Source: Antedon bifida (lineage: Eukaryota; Echinodermata; Crinoidea; Comatulida; Antedonidae). Taken from it: a stretch of DNA of 64,000 nt. Below the pieces are notes generated by a model, which was not told where the DNA came from, did not search any database, and worked only from the letters and a program-made list of their open reading frames with translations. The DNA lies in NCBI GenBank assembly GCA_963402885.1, contig OY727097.1:30807401-30871400 (forward strand), in the 5' to 3' direction. Positions 6,701 through 63,527 of this stretch are shown here, piece after piece (position 1 is the first letter of the stretch; the number at the start of each line of letters is the position of its first letter). The translations under genes were made by a program, and so were the position numbers.

Positions 6701-9700
6701 ATGTTGATATGTAAATGAGGCCACTAATTATGCTAATTAGCAGTGAATCAACTACTGTAATAAATCCTGTGTGCAGATTTAAAATGATATATATGATTTT
6801 TAAAAGCCTTTTGATTTTATTTTATACGATACCTTTAACTTTTCGATTCTAATTTTGTCTAACTGAGAAGAAAAGAGGCATGCAAATGTTTAACAGATGA
6901 CAAAGATTACATTTAGAAAGAGCGTCATGCAATGGACAGAAAAATAAACATTTACAACATAAAATACAACAAATGTGAGAATATTCGTTTCTATTGTCTA
7001 AGAAATTTCAACTATAAAATTGAAAAAAATTTTATTTTTGCCTTTAATTTCTACCTAAATGAATTAAGAATGCTTTTGTTTCTTTTTAAATTTCTTTTCT
7101 AATTTTAATTTTGATGAATAAAAAATGGTAAAAACTATAAAATTAACTGCCATGCAATACTGCACCCTATAGTTTACTACATGATCATAAAAATGTCTAA
7201 TATTATTTCATAGCATTTTAGGCATAGCGGTGGCATTCTCACCTTATCGAACAGCTCATCTAAGCCTGGAGCACCCTCATCCTTAGGCTAGTGGAGCAAA
7301 CAAAAAACAGCAAGCAACATTAACACATTCAAGACAAGTTAAACAAAACTATAACGGTCTTTTGAATTAAACACAGCACTGACATGGTTTATGCTCAAGG
7401 ACACTAACCAATGCTTCTAGTTCATCATGAGTAAGTTCATCATGATCAAATCTTAATGTGACCAATTGAACATTTTAGTTATTATTACATAAAAACATTT
7501 GAATCACTTGTGTATAAAAAAACTATAGGTTAGTGCATTAAACAATAAACAGCATCATAAAAAAACAACCACATATCACAAACTACAGAGCAACAGACAT
7601 ACACCATACAAACTTGCGGCTTTTGTAAAAAGAATCTCCTACAATATTTTGATTTACAGAACAAAAACTTACTTAATAATAATTAGTTGATACCAAAAGT
7701 TTTTCCATTTATATTCCATTTTTATATTATTTTAATCTTCTTCTGTTGTTATGCTCATATTATAATGGTTTCCTCAAGACTAAAGGGCAATTTACACAGA
7801 CGTGCGGTAACGGTAATAACAATCTAGAATCTATGTTATTTCTTATGACCAATTAACATAACGCGGAGTGGACGGACAGTTTCCGCTCAGGATAGATACA
7901 GATTCTACGTGGGACAAGCTACACGGTTTTCTGCTTACCGTTACTGTTCGTCTGTGTAAATTGGCCTTACGACTGTGCCTTGTGAGAAACCTCTGAGCGA
8001 AATATTGAAAAAACAAAACAAAACACAACTTACAATGACATGTTGTTGACACGTATCTTCCATGATAGGTCTAAAGACATCAGGGCTGGCAAAAGTCTTG
8101 ACCTCTTTCTTCTCCATCTGGATCATAGGTTCTTCTACAACCATTCCATCCGGCACAGAATCATTATGGTGGTTGGTATGATTCACGTTTGCTGATGGGT
8201 AGTTCCCCCGATGCTCTGTGTGGTTTCGGTTCTTTGGTATTTCTACAGGTGCTTTCGCTGGTTTTTGCATTGGGACATCTCGTACTGGTTGCTCATAATT
8301 GTTTATTTTTCTATTTAAAAAAAAGGTGAAGAAATTAAGATTCCTTACAAAAAAGTGGACAAAAGTAAATTATATTTCAATAGAAACATAACATTCTATA
8401 TGCAAAAAACTTTCCAAATACTGAAGACCTACAAATTCACATTTTTTTAATGTTCTGAAAAGAATTAATGTACATTGTAGCCTAGGCATAAAGCTCTGTC
8501 TACACTATCAAACTAGTTTGACAAAAAGTGTGATATGCCCAAATATGATAGTGGTATGACATCATCATGTCCATATATCGGTGGGCACATCACATTTTTT
8601 TTGTCAAATAAAGTGTGATAGTATAGACAGAACTTAAGAACCTCTGGTTTTATATTATTATTACTCTTCAGTGTTACTATGAAATAAAATGTTTATAGCC
8701 TTTAACTAAAGTTTTAACTGCTTAAGTAAAAAACAGGAGACTAAAGAGAAGTAGGTGTTTGATTTCCTCAGCAATCTTTTAAAGGGTAGTTAACTATTTA
8801 TAGTAAGCTAGGCTGTATTGGTGAAATGATAAACAAAACCCAACTGTAACCAAAACAAACCAACTGAAAATATGCAATGTTTTTAGTAAATGCCAGATGG
8901 CTGAAACATTAGCTCTGTGCAATAATAAATATTACTGGCGAGTGATTGAATGCTATTACATTGTACTTATACTTGTACTTAAATTAATAACAATTAAATA
9001 TCAATTTTTTAAATTAAATGTTTTCTCCCAATTATATTTGTGTTTATCATTAATACATTAATTAAATGGTTTCGTGGGAAATACAATTTTTTTTAAAATG
9101 TTGTACTTATGATGTATTCTTCTATTATTTATTCCTTTCAGTGAAACATAAAACACTGAGGAGAGACAAGAGCTGTCAAAGACAACTATCGCCAGAGGGC
9201 GTGTCTTTCCAACTCCAGACAAACAATACAAGCTACATTCTGCTACAATTGTTAAGGAATACACATTTGTTTGTAGTGATGATGTTTGTTTGTTGTTACT
9301 TTGGGAGTACGGAACCTGAACTCTTGTTATAGTGATTAGGTTCACTTTTAGGTTCCTGCCTACTCCCTTAGTTTCTGTGTTTGTGTATGTTTGTAACTGG
9401 TTTTTGGCAATAAATAATAATAATAATAATAATGACATCATCATGTCCATATATCGGCACATCACATGTTTTTATCACATAAAGTTTGATAGTGTACACA
9501 GAGCATTAGGCATACAAGAGTTTCTGTATCTAAATTTGTGAAGTCTAGGAAACTAAATACTATCAATATTTGTTATATAATTTTTTCTATAAAAGTTAAA
9601 TTTTTTTTATATAATTACTCTAAACAAATAAATAAAATGAAACATATAGAAAGGTCAGGAGAAGGTTGCGACTATTATTACACAAGTTGGGTAAACTTAC

Positions 9701-15700: not shown

Positions 15701-18700
15701 CTTTATATAAGATTTAGTTTAGCATGATTTTGTTTCGATCCTCTCACCTCTCGCGTTGAATCACGTCCTTAATGTATATTTTAAGACAAATTTATTACTC
15801 TAGGTAGTCCAGAAGTGAGGAAAAAATGTGTAAAAAAATGGATGATATTGGACAGATAAATGCGAAGGTGATCTTCACGAATCTTCAGAATATAATTCCC
15901 AACAGCACAGAGATAATACATGTGTCTTAAAGGGTAATATTGCATATTCTAAATATTCAAGGCTGCTTTTTAGGTCATTCTTCATCAGGATGAAGCCATT
16001 GGAAAGTACACAAAAAAGTTCAATTTAAATATTTTTAAATTTGAATTGTCCTCTGTTATTTGAATACAATATATTAATATTTCAATTAACGTATTATTGT
16101 TTGATAAAATAAATGCTGGTCAGAACTTGCTAACAAAACTCATATTGGTGTTTATAAAAGAATTTAGAGTTTACAGAATTGTCAATTGTAGAGAATTGAT
16201 TGAATTATGATGACTTTGACAATTGCTGTATGGCTCAATCAAGTAATTTGCGCAAGATAGGTAGAATCGTTTAATTGTCAAACACAACAAAGATCCCAGT
16301 TTACTAGCTGCATGAAAGAAAGCTAAATATTATATATATTTTTAAAATAATTAGTAATCATTTTGTCGATGATAAATACTCTTTTATAATGGTGCTGCTA
16401 GCTTTTGTGTAAAAATAAAGCAGAGTACTTGAAATTAGTTAACCAAATTAAACAGAATATGAGATATTAATAGAACGTTTGTTATGATAAGAGATTATAT
16501 ATGCTAATAAATAAATCAAAACGTGGCCGATTAATGAAAATAAATTAAGCATGATAGGATGATAATTGAGAAATGAAAATGATTTAAAGTAGAAAGAATA
16601 GAATACCAAAAGCATAGAACCGTGCAATTTTCAACCAGAAAAAAATCCAGAAAAGCGGATAAATATAATACTAACGTCGTCAGGTTCGTCAAAAAGGCCA
16701 ATGACGCTCGGCCTGTCGCGGATCGGAGGAGTAGATCGCTCTGACTCCTCAGGAGACTTTTTATGAGCTTGGATTCGGCGCGCAAGTCTTGTGGCTGGTT
16801 TTGGAGCGGTTGGGGGCGGTTCCTTAAATTGGCTCCCAAAACTTTTAGGGAGGGTATTAGAGCGGTATCTGGTCTGGAAAATGAAAAACAAAATGGCATG
16901 CAAACAAAACAAAACATAATATGAAGTTACAGAATTATCTTCGGTAAAAAAAAAACAAAAACAAAAATTATAGTGTTATTAAATTATTAAAAATAAGAGA
17001 TACCAGAAAATAAAATATGTTACATTAGACTGAAAATTAATGAATCAATTTCATTAAAATAAATTGAATGCAAATAATAATAAATTTATAAGCAAAAATA
17101 TATTACTCAAACCAAACCAAATATAGGCATTACATGTATAAAACAAAAATAAAGAATATGATATAGATATAATGTTCAAACTAAAAAAAAAAAGAAAATC
17201 AAGTAAAGAGTACAAGCCTTCCATTGGGACATCCCATAAGTGGACACCTGTATTAAGGGGACACAACTATAACAAAGGTCAATATATTTGTTAAAACTGT
17301 GGCCAATCCTTTTTCAGAGAACCCCCTCTTAAGGGGGCCACTCTCTCATGAATCTGGCAATAGGTAATATGTTTAATAAAACAGCCAGATCATATTTAGG
17401 GGACACCCTTATTCCTGGACCACTCTGTTGGATCATAAAGGTGTTGCATTAATAGAAGTTCTACCATGGTTAGTGATTATTTTAGTATATAAATAAAATA
17501 AGTCAACATGTTAATTGCATTGATTGAATTGTATTTAGGGTTCAATTTTGTTATTATGCTTTTTTAACTGACTGGTAAACCTGGTAAATGACTGCGTATC
17601 ATTGGTAATTATTGATTAATTGATTGGTAATCGTATCAATATATTGTCAAACCTGTTGCAGATCAATAATATTTAGACGTGATGTTAACGTTCAGGTGAC
17701 AAACCTGACTTAATGGTTTATGGATAATATAAATATTACTGACATTTATTTATTTAAACAAAAGTACAAATTATAATTTAATAGTTGTTTTAAGTGTCAA
17801 TCAAATCAGATCATTTTGTTTTAAGCTCTGTCTACACTATCAAACTAGTTTGACAAAAAAGTGTGATGTGCCCAATATGGTAGTGATATGACATCATTAT
17901 ATCTATATTTGAGTACATCACATTTTGTTGTCACATAAAGTTTGATAGTGTATACAAAGCTTTAAATTGAAGGGTGAATATATATCCATTAAAAAAAAAA
18001 ATAATTCGATATTTTTACAATTGGTATTAAATGTCACTTTAAAAACCCCAACTTTTTCTCCAAAAGCAATAACAAGGAGAATTGTCAATTTATCACAATC
18101 ACATTGAATAAAACATACAATCAAAAATGGCAGCAGAGTTTTGAAACATTTTTTTTAGCAATAAAATAATTTTATACTAAAAGACTAATGGTTCCTTGTA
18201 CTTAAAAATACCAATTTTTTAGCAGACAAAAATATTTGTTTAATGAAACAATATCAGCAATTTGAGTGATGTCACCTTTCAGTTTATTGAAGAATTTGTT
18301 TTTATTAAAATATGTGGTTAACACAAATGACAGTGATCAGCTTGAATATTGCATTCAAATACTTCCTACTCTAATCTATTGTTGAGGTCACCTATTGTAC
18401 CACACATTGTCAAAACCTTTCATTAAAATACCAATAAAAACAGCATTTTAGATTTTAATAGGTTAGGTTGAAATTGTATACAGCATTTTGTGTATATTCA
18501 ATAGGCCAAAATGCAGTTTTTTTCAAGTAAAAATTCTGTAATGTTATTGACTATACAAAACTATAAAAAACAAAAATCACTACAATAACTAATTCTGTCA
18601 TACTTATACAGTAAAAAAAAACCTTCTTTGGGACACTAAACAAGCAAGGCAAAATATATGTTTTAATATTGTTAACCCCTAATCAGGGACACCTTTATTA

Positions 18701-43729: not shown

Positions 43730-44999
43730 CTACAATAAGAATCCTTTTTATATTTGCAAGACTAAAGCATAGCAAATAAACAACAGCTATAAATAATGCT
43801 ATTTCCTTCTTCCTCGTTGAAATCTCCCAATGGAATATAAAACCAGCTTAACTTGATTCACAACATACCAGTATTTCTTAAGCAATGAATAAACTATCTA
43901 GATTACCAGAGAGAAATTAATGCTCTGCCAGGAAGCAGTCAACAGTCGCTCTGAGTTGATTGCATGTGAAATTATTCAACCATATCGCTGTAGGAAGGAT
44001 TTTACTTTTTTTGTTAAATTACAATAGGAATAGAGGTATTGGATTTACTTTGTAGGCGGCTTTGTTCGCTTGGCACGAATAGTTTTAAATGCAATGTCTC
44101 ACAAATATTGGATTAGATACTTTGAGGTAATGGCGAAGGTTGGCATGTAGTGATATCAACTAGAGTAATGAACTTTTTAATAATATTGCACTACATTTTT
44201 ACTATTATTTATGCAAGCACTCTTAGTCTTAAATGTTATCTGTATTGATTTAATTCCAGTACTGTATTTTGATTTCCTTGTTTGGGGATTAATACCAATT
44301 TAGTCAATAAAAATTGGTAGGCTTGGAATTCTAGTTGTAGTACAAAAACTTTCTTACCTAATTTATAGGTTCATGGAACTATAATTATATGGAAATATAT
44401 ATACTGTATATACTTTGGTTCCAGCAGTGTTTATTCTTCTGAAACAGTGGCAGATCCAGGATTTTGAAATAAGAGGACCCATGGCCTAAAAATGGCAACT
44501 TTTAGGTGCTGAACTGAAATTAGTGTCTTATCTTTTGCATTACAATTTGCAAAATTTTAGACTGGGCCCCCTTTGAATCCGCCTATGTGATAAACATGAT
44601 TTCATTCATTGCATTGTTGTGTCAATGCGCCATGAGCATCTAATTTGTGATGGAATCCGGCGCAAAACCAATATAAAATTTCCTTATTAATAAACTGGAC
44701 CATGTGCAACCCAAGTTAGTCACAAGTCTGCAAAAACCTTTCCTTTACACTACACATGTGATCTATAAGCACTGCTTGAATAGAAACAGAGTGTTTGACA
44801 GATTATCAGGCCAGTTGAATACACCTATTCTGCACATGCTCAGAAACAAACGAGTACAGTATATGCAGACCGTTGGGACTCAATAGATGCAGAGTCACAT
44901 AGCGAAACAAAACCATGCAATAGTACACATACTTCAAATCACTTGAAATAGACATTTTTCATTCAAAAACACAAATTATACAAAATATTTTGTTTTTAC
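43730..44999. other. space between the LMO7-like gene and the snoRNA host
   Basis: Apart from the hAT-like remnant at 44443-44590 I see no feature. A missing 5' exon of the LMO7-like gene could lie here or upstream of the host gene. Confidence 0.5.
44443..44590. mobile_element. degenerate hAT-like element
   Basis: Starts CAGTGGCAGATCCAGGA and ends GAATCCGCCTATG, a poor inverted repeat of the hAT type (CAGTGGCGGATCC). Internal TGGGCCCCCTTTGAATCC is common in such elements. Diverged, and no target duplication was identified. Confidence 0.4.
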
Positions 45000-45341
45000 A
45001 CTTTATATTATTTATTCATTTGCTCACAAAACACTATTTGTAGATTATTTAAAAAATATTAACATTATAAACATTTTTTGAAATTAATATCAGCAAAAAG
45101 ACTGCTGTTTTGGACAAATTATGTCACTGTCCAACATTCACTATAGACATTCATCAAATAAGAAATGTAAACAGCAGCTCACATTTACTTTATCTTCTTA
45201 AATCTAAGCAGTTTCTGTAAGACAAAAATATGGTTAAAGAATTAATCTATGCGGAGGAGTGAAAAGCACAATGAATGAGCTGGTATTGGTTTTCTTTTTA
45301 ATTTAACATATTAGACATAAAAACAAGGAACCAGTCCTGGC

Positions 45342-45442
45342 GTTTGTTTACTCAGATTTGGTTTGGCTTAAGCATATAGCATTGATAGTCAGCACATATC
45401 GATAAGCTGGGGAAAAAAGTTAAATCATCATCGTGAACAAAC
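45342..45442 (-). ncRNA. C/D-box snoRNA, type Y copy 1
   Basis: Minus strand: C box ATGATGA, D box CTGA (45352-45355), D' box CTGA, imperfect terminal stem GTTTGTTCAC/GTAAACAAAC. Conserved with the other two copies: the 5' part (TTTTTTCCCCAGCTTATCGA) and AGCCAAACCAAAT before the D box. I do not recognise either guide. Host intron 8, next to a family A MITE. Confidence 0.83.
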
Positions 45443-45471
45443 TGTATAGCAGAAAATTCCAACTAAATTCA

Positions 45472-45650
45472 AAGCTCCATCTACACCATCAAACTTTATG
45501 CGACAAAAAAATGTGATGCACCCATATATGGACATGATGATGTCATGTCACAACCATATTTAAGCATGTCACGACCATATTTAAGCATATTACTACCATA
45601 TTTATTTTACTTTTTTTTGTCAAACTAGTTTGATAGTGTAGACAGAGCTT
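45472..45650. mobile_element. MITE family A copy 13, in the last intron of the snoRNA host
   Basis: Complete element with an expanded internal tract of CATATTTAAGCATRTCAC-like units. It sits between the last small exon and type-Y snoRNA copy 1, lengthening that intron. Confidence 0.92.
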
Positions 45651-45778
45651 TAGGATGCTATAGACCAAAAATACTTACAGCTTCACAACTTTATTGTTCC
45701 GTTTCTGAAATATAAATAAAAATTATTTATTTACTAAAATGATATATGCAAGATACACAAAAATGTTTATTTAATACA

Positions 45779-45870
45779 CATGTTCAGATTTGGTTTGGCT
45801 TATGCTAATAGCAAGAAACGTCATCATGTATCGATAAGCTGGGGAAAAAAGATTAAATCATCACAACATG
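45779..45870 (-). ncRNA. C/D-box snoRNA, type Y copy 2
   Basis: C box GTGATGA, D box CTGA (45784-45787), perfect terminal stem CATGT/ACATG. Shares the D guide and 5' block with the other copies, but the D' CTGA is replaced by an ATGATGACG sequence, so its D' guide may have changed or been lost. Host intron 7. Confidence 0.85.
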
Positions 45871-46090
45871 CGTCTTACTTATTACATAATTACTTATGTT
45901 TATTTATTATATAATTGTTATTACTTTATCAAAACAAAAACTTACTTTACACAATCCCATTTGATGTTTCCCATTGAGTTAAAAATTGAATCGGCTGTTG
46001 AGATAGAAAACAGAATATCAACATAAAAATGCATAGAAAGCAACCATTCCTAATCTAGGAGTTAGAGGTTAAAGGACTGTATGGTAGAAA

Positions 46091-46181
46091 CAAGCTCAGA
46101 TTTGGTTTGGCTTATGCTAATAGCAAGAAAGTCAGCATTTATCGATAAGCTGGGGAAAAAAGATTAAATCATCATTGCCTG
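46091..46181 (-). ncRNA. C/D-box snoRNA, type Y copy 3
   Basis: C box ATGATGA, D box CTGA (46096-46099), D' box CTGA, terminal stem CAGGC/GCTTG. The D guide and 5' block are the same as in copies 1 and 2. Host intron 6. Confidence 0.84.
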
Positions 46182-46289
46182 CCTACCAAACATATAAAAC
46201 GTATTAATTGTAAAACATTGAAATTTACCTGTAATTACAGATTCTGGAAGTATAGGTACGGTCTCCGAGACACTAGACTGTGTCCAGCT

Positions 46290-47329
46290 TTACCATTTTA
46301 TGGTCTTCCTCCCAGTGTTCATATCGTTACACTTTCCGTATTCACATTTAAACGATGCTATTGAAATGAAAAATAAATGCATCATTACTGTCAATTTCCT
46401 ATCCCAGCAAATTGACCCCTGACCTTAACTGATACATGTCAAATCAAGCAAGCCTCAGTTCTCCAAGGTATTGTGTACTCATCACTGTGACCGTGGTCAC
46501 TATGGTACCCAATTTACCTTCTCATCATAACTTGCATGTTTTACTAAATTTCAAGCACTCAAAATCCAGCTAAATTTCCTAGTTACCCCATTTGAATATT
46601 TTAATACTTCTAGTTAAAGAAAAAAAGTTTTTACCTTTAGGTCGGCCACACTTGGGGTCGTCAAGATTTTCCAAAATCTGAAAAAAGGATTACAAACTTT
46701 ATTTTGCAGCAAAGACAAGTTTAGTTATATTAAATAATGGTGTATTCTTTATTTAGTCAGCTCAGACATCCAAGGAAGGTTAAATGCCATCACGAGAGAC
46801 AAGCTCTTATGGTAGAAACTGCGGATTGGAGGTCAAGTTATCATCATTGCTGACAAGACATTATAAAGACTTTACATTATATTCTGGAGTACAACACAAT
46901 CTTCAAATTCAGTAGTACAGATTTTCAATTACAGCATGCGTAACAATCATAATTAAACAGACTATTACCTTTGTAATACACAAATTGTCTTTAATGTCAT
47001 CTTTCAGCTGTACAGCCTGCAAACAGAATGTAAATCAAGTTAGGGACTGTATAATAGTGTAGATACAATAAATTAAAATGAATTTTAGTTTCTTTTGTTA
47101 GCTCAGACATCCAAGGAAGGTTAAATGCCATCATGAGAGACAAGCTCTTATGGTAGAAACTGCGGATTGGAGGTCAGATTATCATCATCGCCAACAAAAC
47201 AACTGCGAATGCCAAGTATCCACTCCCAAAACATACATTGGTATAAAAACGCATACATTTATCAGTCTCCCTACCCTCATTTGGATAGTTTTGCAGAAAA
47301 AAATTAAGCGTACCATTTAAAGTTACCAT
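46290..47329 (-). CDS. 53-codon ORF spliced over four exons of the snoRNA host RNA
   Basis: If the host exons are joined, ATG at 47327-47329 opens MAVQLKDDIKDNLCITK, continues through exons 46969-47016 and 46635-46677 (LDDPKCGRPK) and stops at 46290-46292 in exon 46229-46357 after KCEYGKCNDMNTGRKTIKW. It contains four Cys in the second half. Two shorter upstream ORFs precede it. Host transcripts of this kind are usually noncoding, so it could be chance; no family is recognised. Confidence 0.3.
46448..46535 (-). ncRNA. C/D-box snoRNA, type X copy 1
   Basis: Minus strand: terminal stem GCAAG/CTTGC, C box ATGATGA (46522-46528), D box CTGA (46555-46558 region of the plus numbering is not used; the box is at 46455-46458), internal hairpin GTGACC/GGTCAC next to a C'-like GTGATGA. 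The 10 nt before the D box, CCTTGGAGAA, would pair with TTCTCCAAGG; from memory LSU rRNA has TCTCCAAGGTGAAC, which makes LSU a candidate target. I cannot assign a SNORD number. Host intron 5. Confidence 0.85.
46756..46854 (-). ncRNA. SNORD14: U14 (SNORD14) C/D-box snoRNA, copy 1
   Basis: Minus strand: C box ATGATGA (46841-46847), D box CTGA (46762-46765), terminal stem GTCAGC/GCTGAC. It carries both U14 hallmarks: CGCAGTTTCTACC (complementary to 18S GAAACTGCG) and CCTTGGATGT directly before the D box (18S 2'-O-methylation guide). Lies alone in intron 4 of the host gene. Identical to the copy at 47741 over its whole length. Confidence 0.95.
47093..47199 (-). ncRNA. SNORD14: U14 (SNORD14) C/D-box snoRNA, copy 2
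   Basis: Same boxes and both 18S-complementary parts as copy 1, with a few substitutions. The terminal stem is different but paired: TTTTGTTGGC with GCTAACAAAA. Changes in both arms relative to the other copies support a selected RNA structure. Lies in host intron 3. Confidence 0.93.
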
Positions 47330-47440
47330 TTTGAATGAATATAGAACCAAACCATTGATCAACACCTGGAATAAAAAATATAATCTATCATAAATAATTA
47401 ACTATTAAAATAATTTGTAATTAAATGGCTGTCAAATAAT

Positions 47441-47528
47441 GCAAGCCTCAGTTCTCCAAGGTATTGTGTACTCATCACTGTGACCGTGGTTACTATGGTA
47501 CCCAATTTACCTTCTCATCATAACTTGC
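47441..47528 (-). ncRNA. C/D-box snoRNA, type X copy 2
   Basis: 88 nt, differing from the copy at 46448 by a single base (in the internal hairpin). Same stem, C box, D box and guide. Alone in host intron 2. Confidence 0.86.
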
Positions 47529-47740
47529 ATATTGTGAGTATTAAATTAAGTTATGTCATATTTTACAAAATTTTATTATGTTAATTTTATTTAAACATAC
47601 TAACCAAAAACATTTTCTCTTAACCACCCAACCATATCAGTTTAGAATGTTTAACAACTGCACACCTGAAATAAAAATGGAATGTTTGAAAATTAGCATG
47701 AGGAGGATTTTAATTCAGTTAATGACAAAACATTATTTCA

Positions 47741-47839
47741 GTCAGCTCAGACATCCAAGGAAGGTTAAATGCCATCACGAGAGACAAGCTCTTATGGTAG
47801 AAACTGCGGATTGGAGGTCAAGTTATCATCATTGCTGAC
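47741..47839 (-). ncRNA. SNORD14: U14 (SNORD14) C/D-box snoRNA, copy 3
   Basis: Same as copy 1 base for base from stem to stem: C box ATGATGA, D box CTGA, GTCAGC/GCTGAC stem. Lies in the first host intron. The identity points to recent duplication or gene conversion. Confidence 0.95.
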
Positions 47840-48389
47840 ATCATATAGGCCTAGGCTAGATTCATTTAAGTAGGGATTTTGTGAAATATTGTTTGAAAAT
47901 CATTGCCAGAATTCTTTTTTTATATTCTGCATAATTAATCTAGCTTCAATCAATTATTAAAAGCTAGATGATGGTTAATGTTAGAAGTTTGAGGTACATA
48001 AAATTAAAAATGGAATTTCAAAAAATAAAAAATTACAAATTGTACATTTATTAAATAATCAAATTAAATAACAATTGGTTAAACATTCTTTTTATTCTAA
48101 AGAATATCATGTGTAAGCCTTTCTAGGCTCTGTCTAGTTAGGCCTAACATCTACAACCACCACCACGTGGCCGCCAATGCCCTCTACTGGGCTGCTGGCA
48201 CGTGTTCATTTTCCATCATGCACGTCCGGCTTCCTTTCGTCAGTAGTGGTTCGACTTTATTTGTAATTAAAACCGTATAAAATGTGGATTTTAAATATTG
48301 TTGTATAACTGTAGAATTATACCTAAAATATATTGTAAAATAGTGATATTAGGACAAATTACTTATACAAATAGGCACCCCCTAAACAA

Positions 48390-48550
48390 AACCTCACCTC
48401 GAAGTCAACGGCAGAACACAAAAGGGTTATAAAAAAAATCTCATTTCGTTTTTATACCGTCAAACAATGAGGGCAGACTTTAACATTAAATGAGGGCGCG
48501 CTGCTAGTTGCTGCTAAAAAATCAAAAGCTTTACGTTGCCAAGGTAAACC
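48390..48550. promoter_or_regulatory. putative bidirectional promoter: snoRNA host (-) and DNAAF6 (+)
   Basis: The minus-strand host exon 1 starts near 48426 with a pyrimidine-rich CCCTTTTG. On the plus strand a noncoding DNAAF6 first exon is suggested by the donor GCCAAG/GTAAAC at 48543/48544, whose acceptor is at 48885. The two start sites are thus probably 30-120 bp apart. Start sites are inferred, not observed. Confidence 0.55.
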
Positions 48551-48918
48551 TGAGGAAAAAAACACTAATATTATAAGGTATAAGGAGTAGAATACTGATA
48601 CATTATTAGTTACATGGGTTATTATCATTTCAATATTCAAATTAAACCATTCTTTAGGCCTAGATGTTTGGTTTCTGATACGCAAGGCTAGGAGAAATAT
48701 AATCGTTTTTCTTCGAGCCTCCAAAAACGCTGTAGGACGGTGGTTTGGCCTGCTGGGAGTCATTTCGCCCCATCTAACAAACATTTTTAATAACTTTATG
48801 TTGTATGATAGATCGGTTCTACTATTATAATTAAGCAAGGTTTTTGTTGTTACGTTTTGCAATCAGTTTTATTTTCTTTTTTCAGCAGGTTTTTTTTAAT
48901 TAAAATTTGTATTTACGG

Positions 48919-50530
48919 ATGATGGAAACTTCATTAGGACTCGCCGGTATTTCTGCATTGTCTCAACTTCTTAAACCTCCTGAATCTGACAGTGATAGTG
49001 ACGAGGACAAAGTAAGATTGCAGTAATTATTTATAAACTAAAAGGCTGAGTCTGGGAGTATATTTGTTGTACTTCTCTTTCAGCTTTACAAATTTATAGT
49101 GGACGATGGAGAATTGATTGATTTTTTTTTTTTAAATTAAGGGTGTAGCCTATTTAATATTATTCAATATTTCAATATTCAACAGCCAGTATCTAGGACA
49201 CAGCAAATGGGGCCAGGAAGCATTGGACCACCTAAGAAAGTACATACAACACCTGCACAAGGTAATGTGTGTATGCCTAGCATAATGATCTAAACAAACT
49301 AAATTACTGTTTATTACTACTAAATAGTAATACAGATTTATTTGGTTACGTTACACAGATACTAAGCCAGCATCAACAAAAAACTGCAAAGATATTTGGG
49401 ATGCAGATGAGGTGCAGGAAGGAGGAGAGTTTGATGATTTAGATGATCCAAGACCTGAACCAGAGTAAATGAATAAAACTACACTTAAACACTATTGCAC
49501 AATCAAGCACTGCGCTATTGCATAATCAAACACTATTGCACAGTCAGGCACTGACGTACTATTGCACAATCAAACGCTATTGCACAATTAACACAGTCAA
49601 TGAGTCTAAAAACTATTTTTATCTTTGTAGGTATGAGATTATTTTCAAGCAAAAAGTTGCAACAGAAGACATGTTCCTAGGGATGGGCAACAAAACAAAT
49701 GCTACATCATCTTGTGAAGACATTGTTGTAAGTTTTTAAAAATCAGAAAATAAATACATTTTTTTTAGGTGACTACAACACAACATTGTATACCATATTT
49801 GCAAATTGTTTGCAGTATACCATATTATTGTTTATCTTTTAAGGTGAAAATAACTTTACCAAACACCAAATATGGAGATGTTACTCTAGATGTCAATGAC
49901 AAATTTTTAAGTTGTGCAACACCGAATTAGTGAGTATATAAATCAACTAAATATGTCTTGAAGAGCACCCTCTATAATGACACTCTGGTACAATAATGAA
50001 CGTAATAAATGTCTTTAAAAATGTCTTCTAGTTTCTAAAACATGAAGAGCACCCTCTATAATGATACTCTGGTATAATAAAATGAACGTATTAAATGTCA
50101 TCCATCTAGATTCTAAAATATGAAGAGCACCCTCTATAATGGCACTCGGGTACACAAGGAACATTTTCGCCAGTGTAGCGTAGCAAAAAGCTATACAAAA
50201 CAACCTTATTGCTACACATTTTGAAAATTGTGTAGCAAAAAATACAATACAAAACTATGTTTCTCGACTTAAAAATCAGTTTGATTAGCAATATTGCTAA
50301 ACAAAATTTTTAAATGAAAATTTTCCCTGGTACAATAAAATGCACGTAGTTATGGCCCTTTCACACCTAACAATTAAACAAAATTATTTCTTAAATTTTT
50401 TAGTAAACTTAGTTTGCATCTACCTCACCCAGTTGACAGTAAAAATGGAAGAGCTAAATGGGACGCAGAAAACTCATTGTTGACAGTTACCATGCCGATG
50501 GTAAGAGATTACGACTTCCTGAACTTTTGA
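48919..50530 (+). CDS. DNAAF6: DNAAF6 (PIH1D3), dynein axonemal assembly factor
   Basis: Six coding exons with matching phases: 48919-49011, 49186-49261, 49359-49464, 49631-49727, 49844-49929, 50404-50530 (194 aa plus stop). Recognisable blocks are SALSQLLKPPESDSDSDED, GPGSIGPP, DIWDADEV, YEIIFKQKVATEDMFLG and the CS-like ending ITLPN ... DVNDKFL ... LSLHLPHPVD ... LLTVTMPM. Human PIH1D3 is about 214 aa, so this is full length. The known role is cytoplasmic, HSP90-linked pre-assembly of axonemal dynein arms. A 5' noncoding exon ending at 48543 is likely, with the coding exon starting at acceptor 48885. Confidence 0.95.
49491..49590. repeat. short tandem repeat in DNAAF6 intron
   Basis: Irregular units of about 19-30 bp with CTATTGCACAATCAAACA, five to six copies. 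Lies between exons 49359-49464 and 49631-49727. Confidence 0.75.
49960..50160. repeat. tandem repeat in last DNAAF6 intron, period 78-84 bp
   Basis: GAAGAGCACCCTCTATAATG starts at 49960, 50044 and 50122, followed by CACTCTGGTACAATAA and ATGAACGTA. Two full units and one partial. Confidence 0.88.
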
Positions 50531-60884: not shown

Positions 60885-63527
60885 ATGTTTTTCAATATGT
60901 CTTATTGGTTGCTTGTCTTTGTGATATATCTTGCAATAAACTCAAATGAGGGTAAAGTATTATTTTTTTAACCAAATTCAGTGACGTGTATAATTGTTAT
61001 ACATTCGACCGCCGATGTACAGTTTTATTTATTTATATTTTTATACGCTTAACTCGCCAATTACTAGATGGATACACTATTTAAAGATGTATTGTCCCTT
61101 TGACTAATTAAAAAAAAAAGATTTTTTTTTATATTTCGAAAAAAAGTGGGTCATTTTGAAGTATCATAATAACTTTCACCAAAAATTAGTCGAAAAAAAA
61201 ATTTATTTAACCGAAATACAGAAGTTTTTTGTTCAAAAAAAAACTTCCTCGCGATCTGTGTGAAAACATCTTATCAACCGCGACGAGTTGTAAAAATTCC
61301 TAATTAGCATCATGCATAATGCATACTCGTGGCTTGAAATCTTTGTTTACTTTCGCTTGTGACGATTTTCCAGACGAAATGTAATCAAATTAATTTACCT
61401 GTTAATTACGTAAACTTGTTGTTTTTGGCTCAAATTTTCGACTTATTACTATGATATGAATATTACTTTGATATGGCCAATTTAAATTTAGAATATTTTT
61501 TTTTTCATTTTTTGTGTTTCAAGGGACAATACATCTTTAATAGACCTAATGGATAAACTATTTATTAAATTTTATTTCATGACTAACAATTAAGACCTGA
61601 TACCACTCATTAGATGCATTAGATAGTTCTTATCGTTGTATTATTTTTGTATTTTAGGCAGAATAATTATACTTTGCGAAAATCAATCTGGTGAACTTGC
61701 ATGCGAATCTGGAATTGATAAGCCGACATTGAACATAATATCAGCAGAGTACGGGCGAACACAACCAGGAGTAGAAGGAGGACCGTACTGTTACCATCAG
61801 ACAGCTTCTAGCCAAACGAATTGCTATAATGACGTCTTAGATTATGTGGTTGCAGACTGCGAAGGACTCTACACATGCCAGGTGACAGCTTCACATTCTC
61901 TGTTTGGTGGTGACCCTTGTTCTGGGGTTTACAAGTACCTGGAAATTGAGTATGACTGTCCGGAACCCGAAGGTATGTATACACCATGAAGTGAGCATTC
62001 CAAATGTCGCCCGTCAATACATCAGTGGCGCAAGGCAGAGGCCTGAGGCCCATGGTTAAAAGACGCTAAGTGGCCCTCCACGCTGGAAAACTGTAATAAA
62101 GCAAAAAACTGGTTTTGGTTGAATTAACCGTTCAGTTTGGGTTGAAAGGTGAAAACTGTTTTAATTTTTTTCCTACGGAAGTAGTGAAAACAATATTTAA
62201 AATAAAATAAATAAAAATATTAAAATTTAATCTTCATTTTGTATGTTTCTTGGCGGGACAATACGTCTTTAAGTTCTTATTTACTTAATTGTCTATGACA
62301 TATTGTCGACAATATTTTTATCTCATCGTTTGGTTTTTGTACGGTGTGACAAATTCAATACGAATTATCCAATATTGTACCATATTTAGGCATATCACTG
62401 CCATATTTAGGCACATCACACTTTGTTTTGTCAAACTAATTTGGTAGAGCTTTAGATGATTGTTGTCTACGTTACATTGATCAGAAGTATGTTTATATCG
62501 AGTTTTTATCCCAATTGATTTTGTCACAATGTATGCCTCACATCTCAAGATAGGTTTCATACGGTAATATACACGGATAATGTCTAGTTTAATTTTTATA
62601 CTTTTAATCTTATCAGCAAGTGGTTCAGGTATCATTTTTCAATATCATTTTTTATTTAAATCTATATCGTTAAAAAAGCCTGATTATGCTTATAGAACAG
62701 ATAGGGCAACGTATTGTGTAGACTTGCCCCAAGCCTGTATTTATTGTCTTTTTTTATGTTGGTCCACCAGTCGACGTATGAAACGCCATATGTGCAAAAA
62801 TATTTATCTTTATTAATTACGGGCTAGAACCTGGTCTACGTATTGTATATGATACCGTATTATTTGAGACGTAGACGCAACGCAAGTCTAGTATCTTCAG
62901 TCCTGTCATTCTTTCTTCTTCCTCAAAATGATAACCCAGCATCATCAGCCAGTCTAACAGTGAGTCTCTCACTTTATACTCGTTTGTATGTTTAGCTATA
63001 ATATTAACACACACTCTGACAAATATTTTTAGTGTTTGGTACTGAAACGTGTCCAGTCACCCATGGCCCTGCACTTATCACTCGATCTCTATCGGATAGT
63101 GGTTCATCAACTCTAATCAATACCGGAAACCCGATTCCGTGCTCTGGATACATCAGCGGATGGAGGTTTATTCCATCCCAAACTGCCGAATTAATTGCAC
63201 TCGTGTTTAGACCAACGCCAAACAACGACGGCTGGATTTATTATACTGTCGGTAGAACAGTTATTCCTGCAAAAGATGTTTTAGATAAAGTACAGGAATA
63301 TAAACTTAGTGAATCGGATTGGATTCCCGTGTTACGTGGTGATATTATTGGTTTTCACCACAGCAGTGGATTGTTGAAACATGATGATCAAGATCAGACT
63401 GTTGCCACTAGTCAATATCTTCTGAAGGATGGCGCAGAAACACTGACGGCTTTTGTGACGTCAGAAACTGTATTGTTTTCGTCTGATGCTGTATGGCGCG
63501 CGTATTCTCTGCAGTCATTATTTACAG
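60885..63527 (+). CDS. secreted SUEL-type lectin (rhamnose-binding) domain protein, 3' end outside window
   Basis: Exons 60885-60951, 61658-61972 and 63033-63527 all begin and end in phase 1. Exon 1 gives a signal peptide, MFFNMSYWLLVFVIYLA. Exon 2 is one SUEL/Gal_Lectin domain: IILCENQSGELACESG, the AEYGR motif, then CQVTASHSLFGGDPCSGVY and KYLEIEYDC, with the family's YGR and DPC landmarks and conserved cysteines. Exon 3 (165 residues) is a Cys-poor module with GWRFIPSQTAELIALVF, VIPAKDVLDKVQEY and RGDIIGFHHSSG; I do not recognise it. It ends at GTAATT, so more exons follow. Expected to be extracellular and carbohydrate-binding, perhaps in immunity or coelomic fluid. Whether exon 3 joins exon 2 or the signal exon at 62580 is open. 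Confidence 0.82.
61085..61536. mobile_element. piggyBac-like MITE family D copy 3
   Basis: 452 bp between AGATGTATTGTCCCTTTGA and TTTCAAGGGACAATACATCT, flanked by TTAA at 61081-61084 and 61537-61540. Lies in the first intron of the SUEL gene. Confidence 0.9.
62021..62100. mobile_element. hAT-like end fragment
   Basis: Begins CAGTGGCGCAAGG, like the end of the MITE at 63814, followed by a similar GAGGC/TGAGGCC body. No second end or target duplication was found. Confidence 0.4.
62155..62268. mobile_element. piggyBac-like MITE family D fragment
   Basis: One clear end (CGGGACAATACGTCT followed by TTAA at 62269-62272). The opposite end is not recognisable, so the left limit is approximate. Confidence 0.5.
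62372..62452. mobile_element. MITE family A copy 15 (fragment)
   Basis: Right part only: CATATTTAGGCACATCACAC, TTTGTTTTGTCAAACTA, then GGTAGAGCTTTA. Lies between the SUEL exon and the alternative signal exon. Confidence 0.75.
62580..62628 (+). CDS. alternative signal-peptide exon
   Basis: 49 nt from ATG to a TTCAG/GTATCA donor, encoding MSSLIFILLILSASGS and ending in phase 1, exactly the phase needed to join 63033. It has a textbook hydrophobic signal core. It could be the first exon of a separate gene starting here, or an alternative promoter of the SUEL gene that leaves out the lectin domain. Confidence 0.5.

Follow-up and report, generated by a model that had tools for sequence, protein, structure and literature searches.

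A probable multi-snoRNA host gene carrying U14 and SNORD12-like guides in the crinoid Antedon bifida

Known host genes and the locus in Antedon bifida

Dedicated genes that carry small nucleolar RNAs (snoRNAs) in their introns, open with a terminal oligopyrimidine (TOP) start, and hold duplicated cargo are an established kind of gene. The exons of GAS5, for example, are short, and each of its introns contains a single snoRNA. A locus of similar appearance was analyzed in a stretch of 64,000 nucleotides from the crinoid Antedon bifida (GenBank assembly GCA_963402885.1, contig OY727097.1, positions 30,807,401 to 30,871,400 of the forward strand), hereafter the window, within which all positions are counted. 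The locus runs on the minus strand from 48426 to about 45000 and, judging from its sequence, is very probably a host gene for several snoRNAs, of the same kind as UHG and GAS5, with nine short exons around eight introns. Introns 1 to 8 contain, in this sequence, U14, X, two U14, X, and three Y snoRNAs, where X and Y are two further types of box C/D snoRNA.

Pyrimidine (TOP/YC) initiation is described as usual among snoRNA host genes, and the UHG and GAS5 RNAs as stabilized when nonsense-mediated decay (NMD) is blocked (PMC6954239). The chicken gas5-like host is reported to have no apparent protein product and to carry 10 C/D snoRNAs in its introns, some of them duplicated, and the same is mentioned for zebrafish and frog (PMC2653536). 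The Antedon locus resembles GAS5 and the gas5-like hosts in its multiple intronic snoRNAs and its duplicated cargo, while the cargo itself differs. The long non-coding RNA ZFAS1 hosts SNORD12, SNORD12B, and SNORD12C, which are three copies of the SNORD12 family (PMC7243338). Three SNORD12-like copies are also present here, in the consecutive introns 6-8; unlike in ZFAS1, they are accompanied by U14 and X.

HSPA8 encodes a chaperone. The preliminary description of this locus placed vertebrate U14 genes in HSPA8 introns, which holds for chicken, where three U14 copies are found in introns 5, 6, and 8 (PMC2653536). The number of U14 copies per gene is the same in the two loci, whereas the short exons of the Antedon locus leave no room for a chaperone. 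In cluster V of Neurospora, the U14 homologue CD37 occurs with CD16 in a UHG-like host with only short open reading frames (ORFs) (PMC2780460). That cluster shares with the present locus a U14 within a UHG-like host, and differs in being fungal and in the two snoRNAs named for it. The Uhg1-Uhg8 genes of Drosophila are dedicated hosts. They represent invertebrate loci with intronic snoRNA clusters (PMC13228274), in which they resemble the present locus.

The preliminary description suggested that a dedicated host with re-duplicated snoRNAs would be a different solution in this lineage; it is not a new one, as the gas5-like hosts, ZFAS1, and the Neurospora U14 cluster precede it. Among the matches listed in searches of the open-access literature, none described this host, or any snoRNA host of an echinoderm, which is weak evidence of absence. 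Nor was the mixture of three U14, two X, and three Y copies in one gene found described among them.

Eight introns with one C/D snoRNA each

The region from 44500 to 49000 was read directly on the minus strand, including the boxes, stems, guide letters, positions, and canonical splice borders. One box C/D snoRNA was present in each of the eight introns of the model, as had been claimed. Every snoRNA has a C box, a CTGA D box, and a terminal stem of its own, and the distance from the start of the C box to the end of the D box is 74-86 nt. The region contains 11 RTGATGA boxes, which comprise the eight C boxes and three internal C' boxes (one in each X copy, the third in Y copy 2).

The snoRNA flanks were compared with random 10-mers from the same introns in 20,000 draws. 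All eight terminal stems outscored the random intronic pairs (p 0.0001-0.0047 each), and the mean score was 17.1 for the snoRNAs' own stems vs 8.2 for 42 cross-type pairings.

Branch points typically lie some 25-35 nt from the acceptor. The optimal position of an intronic snoRNA, according to a review, is upstream of the branch point by about 50 nt (PMC8162545). From the end of the D box to the 3' splice site, the distances in introns 1-8 were 81, 82, 86, 84, 97, 101, 79, and 137 nt. With branch points at the typical distance, seven of the eight (79-101 nt) fit the optimum, in line with the position where splicing-coupled assembly is expected. Branch-point-like motifs were seen in most introns and carry little weight: none was found in intron 4, and intron 7 had them only implausibly near the acceptor.

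All eight introns have a GT donor and an AG acceptor preceded by a pyrimidine-rich stretch. Exon 1 (48398-48426) opens with CCCTTTT, a 5'TOP-like start placed from the sequence, and a TATA box (TATAAA, 48451-48456) is located 30 nt 5' of it. On the minus strand of the whole window, a C followed by six pyrimidines lies 26-33 nt downstream of 5/154 TATAAW sites. The spacing of TATAAA and CCCTTTT is accordingly a modest signal that supports the putative start and is not decisive. As sequence features, both the pyrimidine-rich start and the dedicated multi-snoRNA host of the preliminary description stand.

Exon 1 is followed by intron 1 (47666-48397; 732 nt, GT...AG) and exon 2 (47605-47665), whose donor falls after 47605 or, alternatively, after 47601. 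Intron 2 (47604-47366; 239 nt) leads to exon 3 (47327-47365), with a donor after 47327 or, alternatively, after 47314, and to intron 3 (47326-47017; 310 nt). The spliced model continues with exon 4 (46969-47016), intron 4 (46968-46678; 291 nt), exon 5 (46635-46677), intron 5 (46634-46358; 277 nt), exon 6 (46294-46357), intron 6 (46293-45995; 299 nt), exon 7 (45946-45994), intron 7 (45945-45705; 241 nt), exon 8 (45679-45704), and intron 8 (45678-45215; 464 nt). The last exon (exon 9, 45000-45214) contains an AATAAA that begins at 45016, and its 3' end is approximate. The introns had been called short, which is correct for the six of 239-310 nt and not for introns 1 and 8.

Identity of the snoRNA copies

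Rfam was searched in E-value mode with the 4.5-kb region, the whole window, and, for X, a stretch of 116 bases. Within each type, the copies were aligned from the C box through the D box, which gave 74-86 bases to compare. The proposed division into three types stands as a sequence feature.

The three U14 (SNORD14) copies match the SNORD14 model (RF00016) over its full length, with the conserved elements CGCAGUUUC and CCUUCCUUGGAUGUCUGAGC intact. They are copy a in intron 1 (47743-47837; 60.4 bits, E 1.5e-11; stem GTCAGC/GCTGAC), copy b in intron 3 (47099-47193; 58.6 bits, E 4.5e-11), and copy c in intron 4 (46758-46852; 60.4 bits). Their scores are slightly under the SNORD14 gathering score of 64, and their E-values range from 1.5e-11 to 4.5e-11 in the 4.5-kb search and from 2.1e-10 to 6.4e-10 in the whole-window scan. 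Pairwise identities were 83/86, 86/86, and 83/86. Both sides of the stem in copy b differ from those of copies a and c. The latter two are identical over all 86 bases, and their flanks align no better than shuffles; recent copying of the snoRNA only, or gene conversion, would explain this identity.

The Y copies are SNORD12/106-like (RF00581), each with its own stem: copy 1 in intron 6 (46087-46185; 29.2 bits, E 0.0055), copy 2 in intron 7 (45776-45873; 34.4 bits, E 2e-4), and copy 3 in intron 8 (45343-45441; 40.1 bits, E 5.6e-6). All scores remain under the SNORD12/SNORD106 gathering score of 43. In the whole-window scan, the E-values were 0.0029, 0.073, and 0.079, no better than those of some spurious matches to microRNA (miRNA) families, and copy 3 was matched over only 55 nt. 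The main sign of kinship is the upstream guide CUUUUUUCCCCA, located 5' of the internal box, which equals the SNORD12 consensus. Since the scores miss the gathering cut-off while this guide agrees, Y is called SNORD12-like only, and given the weaker SNORD12 scores the assignment also draws on the shared guide and the presence of three copies.

Pairwise identities among the Y copies were 77/80, 72/79, and 70/79. Their boxes and both guide stretches are invariant, and the middle is variable. The three stems are unrelated to one another and scored 15-18, compared with 4-9 in six swaps. The 19 bases that end with the D box are invariant in all three copies, and those ahead of the box depart from the SNORD12 consensus. 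The D-box guide AAGCCAAACCAAAU, found just upstream of 46099, 45787, and 45355 on the minus strand, is the same in all three and unlike the consensus. The pattern suggests that the Y copies arose by a triplication separate from that of the SNORD12 copies in ZFAS1.

The two X copies are located in intron 2 (47443-47527; C box starting at 47521, D box ending at 47448) and intron 5 (46450-46534). They are alike at 73/74 positions, and both contain C, C', and D boxes. The end of X, ACCUUGGAGAACUGA (15 nt, composed of an 11-nt guide and the D box), is identical to the fungal Afu_294 and, ignoring case, also to the plant snoZ101 (RF00358). The latter belongs with human U39/U55 (RF00157) to the clan CL00057, for which the target LSU (large subunit) Cm2791 in human numbering is given, together with an SSU (small subunit) target for RF00358 (PMC3511168). 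The shared 15 nt point to a place for X near the SNORD39/55 clan, and X may guide the LSU Cm2791 site, while RF00157 was absent from the X matches at E 2 or better. As for Y, the reported target of human SNORD12C is 28S Gm3878 (PMC7243338). These target statements for X and Y draw on the Rfam consensus and the literature. Exact patterns for eukaryotic 28S rRNA, which may contain errors, gave no matches in scans of viral and genome contigs.

In the 75-nt flanks, alignment of the U14 and Y copies was not above shuffles (p 0.11 or more), while the X copies showed a slight similarity (p 0.027 and 0.003). The order U14-X-U14-U14-X raised the possibility that a U14 and X pair had been duplicated as a block (introns 1-2 and 4-5). 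This was not supported: the U14 flanks are dissimilar, and by eye no relationship shows between exons 2 and 5, the X flanks alone being slightly similar.

Proposed expression and processing

Transcription start, splicing, processing, rRNA targets, and decay were inferred from the features above. RNA polymerase II would start at the TATA-positioned, pyrimidine-rich start, and the transcript would be spliced into nine small exons. Trimming of every excised intron would leave a single C/D snoRNA, shielded by the C/D proteins that assemble on the snoRNA's own stem and boxes. Of the three types, U14 would contribute to the processing and methylation of 18S rRNA. The conserved upstream guide of Y would direct a methylation in 28S rRNA, and the D-box guide of X another one, probably also in 28S. 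The spliced exons would probably be a by-product, with NMD as their expected fate.

Several observations weigh against the host-gene reading. At gathering cut-offs, the Rfam search returned no matches for any of the eight snoRNAs, and X has no significant Rfam family, the best being Afu_294 with E 0.046 in the 116-base search. The highest of the 42 mismatched stem pairings scored 19, equal to true stems, and the D box of Y copy 3 is displaced from the acceptor relative to the others. The U14 and X copies are too similar to reveal which parts are constrained. Finally, the spliced exons contain an ORF that is longer than expected, which is considered below.

Coding potential of the spliced exons

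The locus could instead be a protein gene, in which exons 2-7 encode a protein of 72 or 57 residues, MFLVLINGLVLYSFKMAVQLKDDIKDNLCITKILENLDDPKCGRPKASFKCEYGKCNDMNTGRKTIKCRFNF, and the snoRNAs are intronic as in ribosomal-protein genes. A single frame is open through exons 2-7 of the preferred spliced model, with 72 codons; counted from a later ATG, which has a strong context (AAAATGG), it has 57. Among 5,000 dinucleotide shuffles, 1.74% reached 72 codons (P 0.0174) and 7.1% reached 57 codons. The statement that the exons are nearly ORF-free was therefore an overstatement. Across the four combinations of alternative donors in exons 2 and 3, the 57-codon frame was kept in all four, and the 72-codon frame in only one.

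Other evidence stands against a protein gene. Codon usage of the ORF was no better than that of random codons of equal base composition (p 0.48, with a small and unverified training set of three long ORFs from the window). No family was found in Pfam for the 57-residue form, and no convincing match in the PDB for the 72-residue form (best E 0.13). A frame of only 29 codons begins at the first ATG of the preferred model, overlaps the starts of the two longer frames, and terminates in exon 4; since its stop precedes five further exon junctions, NMD of the spliced RNA is expected. In addition, short ORFs of 159-267 bp are also reported in the UHG-like hosts of Neurospora clusters I-V (PMC2780460). 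On balance, a protein gene is unlikely; the non-coding host is the better reading, and a microprotein remains its live rival.

A dual-product gene, in which a TOP message for a microprotein is combined with introns that supply eight ribosome-building guides, is quite unlikely. Its product would be a possibly lineage-specific microprotein of 57 or 72 residues with five cysteines and, in the longer form, a hydrophobic start.

Other explanations

Compatible with the other readings is that the gene model is partly wrong and that the snoRNAs derive from independent units, or from a transcript that is longer or spliced in another way. The ambiguous donors of exons 2 and 3, and a start and polyadenylation site that were both inferred, would allow for this, whereas the canonical donor and the pyrimidine-preceded acceptor in every intron make it very unlikely. 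It is highly improbable that the introns of an unrelated transcript received all or part of this cargo as snoRNA retrocopies (pseudogenes). In favor of that reading, the similarity of the U14 and Y copies ends near the snoRNA ends, as retroposition would give, and no copy reaches Rfam gathering scores. Against it, the C and D boxes are intact in all eight, the Y stems differ between copies yet each pairs with itself, and every intron has one snoRNA, with much the same spacing to the acceptor in seven of eight.

Neighboring features

Besides Y copy 3, intron 8 contains a repeat of about 185 nt (45651-45470) that resembles a miniature inverted-repeat transposable element, whose inverted ends can form some 25 base pairs; much of the length of this intron is due to it. 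Many partial copies occur in the window, for example at 32230-32063, 14663-14562, 34757-34656, and 6260-6147, and further at 23591-23503, 17874-17968, and 8530-8635. The matches to mir-3912, mir-2011, MIR4371, mir-4796, and mir-43_2 in the whole-window Rfam scan coincide with copies of the repeat and were rejected as miRNAs. Matches to mir-3914, MIR530, sR7, and sn2841 were also listed in that scan.

In intron 1, a GC-rich hairpin was identified on the minus strand at 48252-48158 (-33.2 kcal/mol, z -2.36, 4/200 shuffles as good), with no second copy in the window and no Rfam family. An H/ACA RNA was considered for this position; no clear H box was seen by eye.

A divergent gene on the plus strand extends from its ATG at 48922, about 0.5 kb from the host start, to about 50530. 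Its peptide, joined by eye from ORF pieces, contains a PIH1 CS-like domain (PF18201, E 3e-11), and from the resemblance of its start it is probably DNAAF6/PIH1D3. PIH1 proteins are linked to snoRNP (small nucleolar ribonucleoprotein) and dynein-arm assembly, and a PIH1-type gene beside a snoRNA host is a curious pairing that may be due to chance. Farther away, a SUEL-type lectin domain (PF02140, E 9.9e-17) is encoded on the plus strand at 61627-61989.

Implications

The locus would supply an instance of one dedicated host shared by U14, a guide of the SNORD12 type, and a third guide. If the dual-product reading were true, one growth-controlled unit would combine U14 with a probable 28S guide and with a SNORD12-like guide in triplicate. 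The locus also provides a test case for host switching, with three U14 copies in chicken HSPA8, three SNORD12 copies in human ZFAS1, and three of each here. From the few data at hand, such repeated triplication in unrelated hosts would suggest selection on copy number and not on the host.

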